Below the pieces are notes generated by a model. It did not search any database and was not told where the DNA came from. It was given only the letters and a program-made list of their open reading frames with translations. From the NCBI GenBank assembly GCA_943735955.1, contig OX030958.1:6082126-6146125 (forward strand): a stretch of DNA of 64,000 nt, written 5' to 3'. This document shows, in pieces, positions 19,616 through 22,833 of this stretch. Position 1 is the stretch's first letter; every line of letters begins with the position of its first letter. This stretch comes from Piscicola geometra (Eukaryota; Annelida; Clitellata; Hirudinida; Piscicolidae). The position numbers were made by a program, and so were the translations under genes.

Positions 19616-22600
19616 GAACCTCCCTTCATGTCTCTCAAGGAGAACAGCGCCTTCCTTCCACCAAACGAGCGCATGGAAGGTTTCTTCAACGACATCATCG
19701 TGCAGTTGAGCACCATGGCTGGCTTCACGTACCAAATCCGACTGAGCAGGGATGGCTTGAAGGGAGAACTGATGCAAGACGATCGCTTCAAGGATGCTAG
19801 TGGTGTTGGAAGAAACAGAAATGGTGGTATAGAAGGTGCTAAGAGAGCTAGAAACACTGGTATGCATGCAACTGATGTTAACAAGAAGGGTGGAAAAGAA
19901 GAAGGTGTTGGTGAGAAAAATAGAGTTAACGGTAACACAAGGGAAGGTGTGGAAGGTGGTGTTCAGTGGTCAGGAATCGTCGGGGAAGTTCTGAGAAGGG
20001 TGAGTGATGTGTGTTTGTGTGTTTGTTTGTGTGTGTGTTTGTGTGTGTATGTGTATGTGTGTGTGTGTGTGAGTGTGTGTGTGTGTGTGTGTGTGAGTGT
20101 GTTTGTGTGTGTGTGTGTGTGTGTGTGTGTGTGTATGTGTGTGTGTGTGTGTGTGTGTGTGTGTGTGTGTGTGTGTGTGTGTGTGTGTGTTTGTGTGTGT
20201 GTGTGTGTGTGTGTGCATGGATGCGTTTTTTTGTGTGTATTTGGATGATGGATAAATGGATGGAATACTTGATAAATGAATGATTGAATGCAAAAATGAT
20301 GAATGTAAAATGACTAAAGTTCGAGATGCAACACGTTTCATTGTTATGATATATGAGTTTATCTAATGGAATCTTCTTCAACTCGATTCCAGACCTTTCA
20401 AACAATACTAAAGCAATTTATTTTTAAAACAACTAGACTACCATATTCAGAATTAGTATTTTTTATAATTCAAATGAATTATTCTCTAAATTATAATTTT
20501 AAAGAGTAAATTATTCTTCGTTATTTATTTTAATCTATTTCAAACTTTTTTGGATCCATAGGAGTCGGACATTGGTGTGTCAGCCATGGTGGACAGTGAA
20601 GAGAAGCGGAAGTACATGAGGTTCAGTGAGCCCTTGATGACGTTGAGGTCATCTCTGGTGGTGCTAAAAGAAGGCAAGGGCCGATTGAGTGAGTGGCTTG
20701 TGAGGGAGAGAATGATTAGTGGGGTAGGATGAATACATGTAATGTAGATGTATGATGTTGTTAGAGCGAGGGTAGTTGAGATTAATGAGTTTTTGTGAAT
20801 GTTCATCGGTGATTTAGTGGATTGAACTTGGTTTAACTAAGAGGGTTTTTAAATAGGTAGTTAGAGAAAGTTATAGATCATATTACTGGCGTTAAAACAC
20901 TTTTAAATCATTCAAACTTTGAAATTCTGAAACAACTTTTGAAACATTTACTACCGCAGATAAAAGAAAGAAATGGCAGGTGGAATCGCGAAATGGAAGC
21001 CAAGACCAAAAGACGTCGACAAGCCATAAAACAGGCCACACTAGCAAAACAAGCGATAGAAAGCGGGCTTTACACGAACAAGGATTGTTTCGACATGCAA
21101 AGATTGATGAATACAAATTGAAAATACGTCCCAAGACGAATGAAACTAGAAAAAACTCACAAGAAATAAAAAATAGCCTGGAAAATAAAAGAAACAGAGG
21201 ATCATATGGCACGAAAAATAAGAAAGCAGAAAGAGGACTTCACCAAGAAGATTCAACGGATACACTGCAATATGAAAAACGAACGATGAAACAGAGTCGT
21301 AAGCGAGTCTACAAACAACATACAAACACAAGAGAAGTACATAAAATGTATAAAAAAAAGATGTCTACTCGAAAACATCAGAAAAGAACTTCAATGAAAT
21401 ACTTATTGGACAGCGGTTTCAACTTCGTGCTGGTGCGAAACAGCGCTGCTCACGTCGACTTGCTTCAGAACGACTTAGATTATCCACAACAAAAGGGCCT
21501 TGAAAAACAGCCACAATTGGCTTCAGGCTCAACGACTGACCTATCAAGATCCCAAACAATGAAAAAACCCCTCGACCACTCTGGTGGAGAACACAGCGTC
21601 CAAGACTTCACGGTGAAATCAACGAGAGAGACTGATGATTTTTCTATGCGACCATCCTTGGTTAGAATCAGGGGGAACAGCCTAGCCTTGGTGACTTCTT
21701 CCCAAAGTTATTCATCGTCTTTTTCAACTGAAATTACAAAATCAACAACAGCAGATACAATAACATCCGAAATAACAACAACTTCAACGCTACAACAGTC
21801 ATCAATAAATATTTCTTCAACTAATGAAACCACAAGCACCGCAAACGCAGGCATCAAAGCGAGAGATAAACCAGCATTCAAAACGCCTCAGGCTGTTCGC
21901 AAAAACGTCTTCAACAATGCAGATCAAGGTCTGATGAAACGCCTCAAGAAAGAGCTAAATGACCATCCAGAGAGAATCATAGCAAGCGCCACCGAAGGGC
22001 TCGACTTGATTTCTCGCAAAGGCAACTTCTTCATGGTGTTGGACAGTCCGTCTGCGCTCTACGTGGCCCGCAACAAACCTTGTGTCTTCGTGTCGGGTCC
22101 TTTGTTCTTCTCGATGCATTCTTACGCCTTCATTTTGGGCAGCCATCTACCGAATGAGTTGGTGGAAAAAATCAATCTTTCGATCCTTGAGATGAGGAAG
22201 ACGAGATTTATAGAAGATGCCTATAAAAAATGGTGGAAAGATAACTGCTATCGAGAAAACCATGGTGCTGATGAAGATAATGATGATAATGATTATGATG
22301 AGGATAGTGAGGATAGTGATGATGATGATGATGAACACTTGCAAAGGGGCAAAGGTAATCATTTTCACAGAAACAAAAATGAGCATTACAAAAAAGAATA
22401 TACGAAGAATCACAATAAATTTAATCACAGTAAAAACTCAGATGTAGGTTTCAGACAATATAACTTAACCAGAAATAATTTTTCTGAAAAAGAAACAAAC
22501 CAAATCAATAAAGTTACCAACAGAAGTATGTTGGAGTTTGATGGGAGAACTCAAAGAAGGAAAGATGACAAACCGATGAACAGAAATGCTGTATTAATGA

Positions 22601-22833
22601 ACAGATGGGGAAGTAGATACAACAATACAGAAGAGTCCTACCCAGACACACAAATGGAGACTTCGTTAAATTCTTTTCACTTCCAAGATAGCGTAAGAAG
22701 TTCCAATGTTTCGATGCAAAAATTCAGATCTGCCCCAACCTCGTTCAATTCGTCACACAGTCATCAGTTGTTGCACTTTCAAGTTGTTATCCTTTGCAAA
22801 GTCTTTCTTCTTTTGTTAAGAAGATTCTTTTGA
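19616..22833 (+). CDS. Divergent ionotropic glutamate receptor ligand-binding protein lacking the pore (5'-partial)
   Basis: Exons: 19616-19999, 20562-20688, 20960-22833; junctions GT-AG and in phase. Exons 1-2 encode lobe S1: EPPFMSLKENSAFLPP, MEGFFNDIIVQLSTMAGFTY, a ~55-residue Gly/Lys-rich insertion, WSGIVGEVLRR, then DIGVSAMVDSEEKRKYMRFS and EPLMTLRSSLVVLK. Exon 3 encodes lobe S2: MKYLLDSGFNF, then after a ~140-residue Ser/Thr-rich insertion ISRKGNFFMVLDSPSALYV, RNKPCVF, and a final FIEDAYKKWW helix. In animal iGluRs M1, the pore loop and M3 lie between the lobes; here that position is a ~145-residue Lys/Arg-rich stretch, and the intron is only 271 bp. The tail is acidic and Asn-rich and ends in a hydrophobic LLHFQVVILCKVFLLLL that might stand for M4. 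The Pro/Thr/Arg ligand-contact positions of S1 read Ala/Val/Lys; the acidic S2 position is Asp (VLDS), as in NMDA receptors. The upstream start is unknown. A secreted or membrane-tethered binding protein, or a decaying gene, are the options. Confidence 0.75.
20008..20216. repeat. (GT)n microsatellite in glutamate-receptor-like intron 1
   Basis: Begins within eight bases of the GTGAGT donor of exon 1 and runs about 200 bp with occasional A or TT interruptions. Confidence 0.93.

Follow-up and report, generated by a model that had tools for sequence, protein, structure and literature searches.

The genome assembly of the leech Piscicola geometra (GCA_943735955.1) contains a gene that probably encodes an exported ligand-binding domain (LBD) of an ionotropic glutamate receptor (iGluR) without its ion channel, and that belongs to a group of about nine such loci. 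The gene lies on the forward strand of a 64,000-nucleotide stretch of contig OX030958.1 (positions 6,082,126 to 6,146,125), referred to below as the window; this contig is C4 in the handles used for other loci, and coordinates given without a contig handle are those of the window unless another region is named. As far as sequence comparison can tell, the two halves of the domain, S1 and S2, would fold into one clamshell, and those sister proteins that keep the glutamate contacts would bind and buffer glutamate or a similar amino acid. A first-pass annotation of this DNA had noticed S1 and S2 motifs with no pore between them and had treated the gene as a single oddity. The observation itself is confirmed and its interpretation partly supported, the gene being one member of a family instead.

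Gene model and missing pore

Gene models for the window gene and its sister loci were read from genomic DNA. The predicted model of the window gene comprises five exons (58 + 53 + 384 + 127 + 1874 nt) encoding 831 residues; all introns are GT-AG and phase-consistent, and no internal stop occurs before 22833. Three of these exons (19616-19999, 20562-20688 and 20960-22833), with the S1 and S2 motifs in order and in frame across GT-AG, phase-consistent junctions, stand as first annotated, and two 5' exons (16450-16507 and 18773-18825), found by an upstream scan combined with a splice model, complete the reading frame. The predicted domain order is signal peptide, S1, Lys/Arg-rich linker, S2, disordered tail and hydrophobic C-terminus, the model passing straight from the signal peptide into S1 with no amino-terminal domain. 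Its parts are the following.

16450..16507, forward strand: exon 1, containing the start codon and encoding the predicted signal peptide MGHITLAVLISLISLNLLT; phase 1 with donor GTTAGA (hydrophobic scan, splice model)
18773..18825, forward strand: exon 2, 53 nt, start of S1 (HDSFNDTRPNLIFSTVL) (splice model)
19616..19999, forward strand: exon 3, S1 core (EPPFMSLKENSAF...QIRLSRDGLKG), matching Pfam PF10613 and related to predicted proteins P0014 and P0015
20562..20688, forward strand: exon 4, end of S1 (ESDIGVSAMVDSEEKRKYMRFSEPLMTLRSSLVVLKEGKGRL), intron place and phase as in canonical receptors
20689..20959, forward strand: intron of 271 bp directly after S1, at the expected start of M1 (splice model)
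20960..22833, forward strand: exon 5, linker, S2, tail and stop codon (open reading frame)
20962..21390, forward strand: Lys/Arg-rich linker of 143 residues in place of M1-pore-M3 (composition)
21391..21480, forward strand: start of S2 (SMKYLLDSGFNFVLVRNSAAHVDLLQND) (alignment with L037)
21481..21909, forward strand: Ser/Thr-rich disordered insert within S2 (sequence)
21910..22258, forward strand: S2 core up to KWWKDNC, including the conserved cysteine pair (NKPC ... KDNC) (structure and profile matches)
22259..22767, forward strand: disordered tail, Asp/Glu-rich and then Asn/Lys-rich (sequence)
22768..22830, forward strand: hydrophobic C-terminus LLHFQVVILCKVFLLLLRRFF, a putative lipid-anchor signal or membrane tether (hydropathy scan)

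Exon 2 is identical in length and phases to exon 2 of the sister genes L039 and L040 and contributes NLIFSTVL, the S1 start ahead of EPPFM. Exon 3 carries a disordered insert of ~58 residues preceding VQWSGIVGEVLRR. The GC content of third codon positions (GC3) was also recorded along 19616-22258: it is 0.58-0.72 in the conserved lobes and falls to 0.25-0.35 in linker and inserts, as though these disordered stretches derived from intron-like sequence, and the introns of the gene have 0.33-0.34 GC.

The absence of a pore was examined with hidden Markov models (HMMs) of six segments, built from canonical leech paralogues and used to scan 20 fetched iGluR regions together with the window. The pore was matched in 12 of the 20 regions (L023-L031, L033, L034 and L035; L031 only at E 0.03). 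A further region, L032, is apparently the 5' part of a gene continuing in L033, and L042 gave an M3 match only. The same own-genome pore HMM found no pore in the six regions L036-L041; for L039 and L040, the match to the M3-S2a model begins at position 23-25 and so covers its S2 part only. In the window, the own-genome HMMs detected neither pore nor M3 between S1 and S2, and a three-frame translation showed none there. Furthermore, a hydropathy scan found no hydrophobic segment between S1 and S2 in the window, L036, L037, L039, L040 or L041. Within the window protein the threshold is passed only in residues 1-20 and 811-831, so that the single hydrophobic segment after S2, where M4 would be sought, stands at the extreme C-terminus, ~170 residues past KWWKDNC. 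The channel domain PF00060 has no match in the window, in L039 (E <= 0.01) or in L037. These results bear out the earlier claim that M1, pore loop and M3 are all missing between the lobes, as well as the reported size of the S1-S2 intron (271 bp) and the charged opening of the last exon, whose first 145 residues include 27 Lys and 16 Arg. For random DNA matched in dinucleotide composition, the chance of an open frame as long as the last exon is ~3e-15 (0/2000 simulations), and for the basic segment alone it is ~3e-4 (2/2000 simulations). A protein so built cannot conduct ions.

Two other places were met in the scans. L047 (C6:7754600-7758000, reverse strand) is a divergent iGluR whose translation has membrane-like segments at the places of M1 and M3. 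With no PF00060 match it was considered as a further pore-less candidate (C6:7757859), and it was not counted, as those segments are visible. At L048 (C13:4508300-4511700; S1 match near C13:4508177) the sequence after S1 is mostly N.

The assignment of the two halves to the iGluR fold draws on several kinds of comparison. Exon 19616-19999 matches PF10613 (E 4.8e-9, 36.8 bits, cut-off 30) and was also recovered by a whole-genome PF10613 scan at 31.1 bits. Exon 20562-20688 has a weak Pfam match to SBP_bac_3 (0.0023), and exon 20960-22833 returned nothing notable in the Pfam search; the S2 assignment therefore leans on more sensitive tests. As a single sequence, the spliced window protein aligns in three collinear pieces with the Drosophila GluR1 LBD structure (E 9.2e-19). 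A two-row profile of the window protein and L037, from which inserts were removed by hand, covers the full domain length of Drosophila GluR1 LBD 5ict (E 3.4e-35) and reaches an hhalign probability of 99.6 against three canonical receptors. In addition, the LBD cysteine pair is retained (NKPC, KWWKDNC), and the boundary of exons 3 and 4 is in phase 0, one codon before (A/S)D, the same as the S1 intron in 5/5 canonical leech genes compared (L023, L024, L025, L029 and L030). The comparisons support a predicted S1/S2 clamshell fold for the window protein. The weak SBP_bac_3 match of exon 20562-20688 alone might point to a solute-binding protein acquired from bacteria and not derived from an iGluR. 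Such an origin is scarcely credible: animal iGluR LBDs are the top PDB matches of both the window and the sister proteins, the place and phase of the S1 intron are common to canonical iGluR genes, and the iGluR cysteine pair is kept.

Pore-less loci in the genome and related predicted proteins

Including the window gene, nine loci have no recognisable pore, or eight if L038 is excluded. This tally is a lower bound, because the iGluR places examined were those found by Pfam or protein searches only. In seven of the eight further loci (L036, L037, L039, L040, L041, L045 and L046) a single exon spans S1 into S2, which leaves no room for a pore exon. L039 and L040 (both C4) are the most compact, each with six exons, a short S1-S2 linker within one exon and a complete protein, of 293 and 297 residues respectively; the two are 61% identical and agree in the length of each of their first five exons. 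From end to end, L039 aligns with a GluA2 S1S2 crystallography construct at E 1.8e-40. L045 (C4:6881150-6884150) and L046 (C3:6975250-6978250), located via the predicted protein P0013, resemble L039: both are compact LBD genes that have a fused S1-S2 exon, the same kind of hydrophobic end and no pore match. In L036 (C9), a single exon covers the last part of S1 and the beginning of S2 with a linker of ~14 residues between them, and the protein has a hydrophobic end shortly after KWWIRDQC, as read from the translation and the hydropathy scan. L037 (C10) encodes S1, a 45-residue linker (Lys/Arg-rich, then Asp-rich) and S2 in one exon, followed by an Asn-rich tail. One exon of L041 (C6) runs from S1 through a charged insert of ~280 residues into S2, and its upstream S1 exons were partly found. 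At L038 (C13), S1 and S2 pieces are present and the S2 end was not found.

A tree of these sequences pairs the window with L037 (91/84), L038 with L041 (96/89) and L039 with L040 (100/99). It needs three changes for the pore-less label and contains long branches, and it favours neither one loss of the pore nor several.

Relatives outside this assembly were sought among predicted proteins. The joined three-exon window protein (794 aa), searched against ~5.8 billion proteins, returned nothing at E <= 10 among 7999 scored candidates, an outcome probably due to low-complexity stretches that exhausted the search words. Alignments of the compact sister proteins served as queries in two length-limited searches. 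The first yielded 12 matches at E <= 0.001, 11 of them with PF00060; the twelfth, P0010 (186 residues, on a contig of 1083 bases), runs from S1 straight into S2. P0010 may be a fragment, and its five matches at E <= 0.01 in the Piscicola genome fall in four genes, all pore-less. The second search gave 10 matches at E <= 0.01, six with the channel domain; the others are P0016, named as a glutamate/aspartate transport substrate-binding protein, and P0013, P0014 and P0015, which look like single-exon reading frames when their sequences are inspected. P0013 shares 64% identity with the final exon of L039, and its hydrophobic ending is of the same kind. P0014 and P0015 resemble window exon 19616-19999, having LKE(N/K)SAFLAP, FF(N/H)D(V/I)I and QIRLSRDGLKG in common with it and, likewise, a disordered insert before W(S/A)G..GEVLRE. 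Compared with the Piscicola genome, P0014 matches the window best (5.7e-21, 50% identity), followed by L037 at 1.4e-3, and the best identity of P0013 is 64%. With best matches of only 64% and 50%, P0013 and P0014 are taken to be foreign to this assembly.

These loci also bear on the view that a pore exon lies elsewhere, so that alternative or trans-splicing would produce a full transcript encoding an ordinary channel. The reliance of the gene models on genomic DNA leaves some room for it. We consider it very improbable, given that the window has neither a pore or M3 match nor a hydrophobic segment between S1 and S2, that a single open exon leads from S1 into S2 in the seven loci named above, and that P0010, from another source, likewise reads straight through. 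The first-pass proposal of a channel-less product, exported and possibly tethered at its C-terminus, finds support instead in the predicted gene model, in the eight further loci and in the related predicted proteins.

Ligand pocket and weighing of the evidence

The pocket was compared at seven positions that we take to be the agonist contacts (GluA2 numbering: Tyr450, Pro478, Thr480, Arg485, Ser654, Thr655 and Glu705). The window protein has K A V K A A D at these positions, so the canonical glutamate contacts are lost; an Arg adjoins the Lys at position 485. L039 retains all seven (Y P T R S T E), and L036 retains Y, P, R, S and E. The pocket of L037 is without the Arg, those of L038 and L041 keep the Arg and have Pro in place of Glu, and that of L040 has D, L and K at three of the contact positions. 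On account of these residues, binding of glutamate is plausible for L039 and not for the window copy. The term 'binding protein' in the first-pass annotation is therefore justified as regards the LBD fold, but not as regards canonical glutamate contacts in the window copy.

Lost contacts, together with the long branch of the window sequence in the tree and the intron-like GC3 of its linker and inserts, are what might be seen in a decaying pseudogene: a once ordinary iGluR, deprived of its pore by a deletion and now drifting. Several results oppose this. The 831 codons are open over five exons with every splice site intact, and the model and a frame check revealed no disabling stops, frameshifts or broken splice sites; the last exon would hardly have stayed open by chance, as calculated above. 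The paralogue L037 retains the same architecture. P0014 and P0015 possess LKE-SAFLAP, FF-D-I and QIRLSRDGLKG, including the change from YG to KG, and the Lys at the Tyr450 position that they have in common with the window favours a conserved change over drift. Because P0013 and P0014 come from elsewhere, they too argue against decay, and we judge a pseudogene unlikely.

A dominant-negative or regulatory role in co-assembly with true iGluRs, put forward as a 'dominant partner' in the first-pass annotation, could draw on the numerous pore-containing iGluR genes in the same genome and on the ability of iGluR LBDs to dimerise. However, amino-terminal and membrane domains drive the assembly of iGluR subunits, and the model has neither; partnering with true receptors is for that reason unsupported. 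The window LBD is, moreover, far diverged, and such a role appears distinctly unlikely.

A number of points count against an exported, channel-less LBD family. The pore HMM can miss divergent pores, scoring L047 only at E 3.3; because of this locus an HMM miss alone was held insufficient, and added reliance was placed on hydropathy and on exons that span S1 and S2. L038, judged by the pore HMM alone, is the least certain member. The S2 piece of the window by itself is weak both in the PDB search (third piece, i-E 0.091) and against the own-genome S2b HMM (E 0.0015), and no end branch of the tree is longer than that of the window sequence (3.07). Signal peptide and tether were assigned from hydropathy and sequence appearance, and the tails of L037 and L040 fall below the hydropathy threshold. 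For P0014 and P0015, kinship is judged from a single exon in each case. Finally, the accessible parts of two reports on other leeches describe ordinary receptors and leave pore-less ones unmentioned: 11 iGluR contigs in Hirudo verbana (PMC6054404), and six iGluRs with a channel domain or membrane segments in Sinospelaeobdella (PMC11748453). Within the open-licence PMC literature on leech, annelid, secreted or soluble glutamate receptors, no report of a pore-less iGluR family was found; the word 'poreless' occurred there mostly with insect papers, some of them on hygrosensilla, and probably refers to sensilla that lack pores.

Some neighbouring features were recorded alongside. The canonical iGluR L024 (C10:7312500-7322400) has an inverted copy nearby (3788-4594 on the forward and 7350-6542 on the reverse strand of that region); its M3-S2a, S2b and S2c pieces have identical letters on both strands, which suggests a recent inverted duplication. 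About 85 kb from the end of the window, L042 (C4:6226000-6235500) contains at 5048-5176 of that region a divergent iGluR with SYTANLAAF and an unclear pore-loop match. The window itself includes a charged, low-complexity open reading frame of 1075 codons with no Pfam match (10104-13331) and, downstream of the LBD gene, a myosin motor-domain exon (26348-26617; PF00063, 2.7e-14). Long minisatellite or dinucleotide arrays, open in several frames, occur at 28499-30216, 25882-26163, 24380-24640 and 15110-15380 (e.g., NHPT/IQPT and IHPS repeats).

Known systems, proposed mechanism and significance

AMPA/kainate-type iGluRs resemble the window gene in their S1 and S2 lobes, the place and phase of the S1 intron and the cysteine pair. 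The window gene differs from them in a model without amino-terminal domain, M1-pore-M3 or M4 with cytoplasmic tail, and in a changed pocket. Laboratory GluA2 S1S2 constructs (e.g., PDB 1ftk) have in common with L039 and L040 a short linker between S1 and S2; the latter are natural genes with a predicted signal peptide and a hydrophobic C-terminus. Kainate-binding proteins and glutamate receptor U1 of fish and amphibians were among the best matches of L039 and L040 in the length-limited search. These proteins are short and devoid of an amino-terminal domain; unlike the window protein, L039 and L037, they keep PF00060. Protostome ionotropic receptors (IRs) combine a divergent LBD and an altered pocket with a retained ion channel. 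The acetylcholine-binding protein of molluscs and annelids is a secreted, pore-less ligand-binding domain of a transmitter channel. It derives from Cys-loop receptors, which have a different fold and no kinship to iGluR clamshells, and the analogy is one of mechanism only; by sequence, its set of features (predicted signal peptide, ligand domain, no pore) is present here.

In the mechanism proposed, S1 and S2 would come together outside the cell as one clamshell, the linker looping out, in the manner of laboratory S1S2 constructs. The hydrophobic C-terminus may be a lipid-anchor signal or a tether; the lipid-anchor reading is suggested by the small residues that precede it in several members (SSN in L039, SGN in L040, SGS in L045 and L046, STN in P0013), as in lipid-anchor signals. 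As the basic linker holds several dibasic sites, its cleavage into a two-chain protein is conceivable. Sister proteins with glutamate contacts could act on glutamate or a related amino acid as the acetylcholine-binding protein acts on acetylcholine, by binding and buffering it, and ligand buffering or chemosensory binding are candidate roles. The window protein, with its changed pocket, might bind something else or serve as a surface or matrix protein.

More broadly, we lean slightly towards the view that channel-less glutamate-receptor clamshells have evolved in leeches as a natural multigene class, with about nine loci in Piscicola, some having a full glutamate site and others re-shaped for other ligands. 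Exported and either lipid-tethered or shed, such proteins would form a glutamate counterpart of the acetylcholine-binding protein. If this is true, the class may have been overlooked because iGluRs were selected by a pore motif in at least one major survey. A natural S1S2 protein would then offer a ready-made glutamate sensor or scavenger, as well as an evolutionary test of whether an iGluR clamshell can exist independently of its channel. Leeches are a classical model of neurobiology, and if proteins of the L039 type bind glutamate, an extracellular glutamate buffer or a chemosensory binding protein may have gone unrecognised in these animals.

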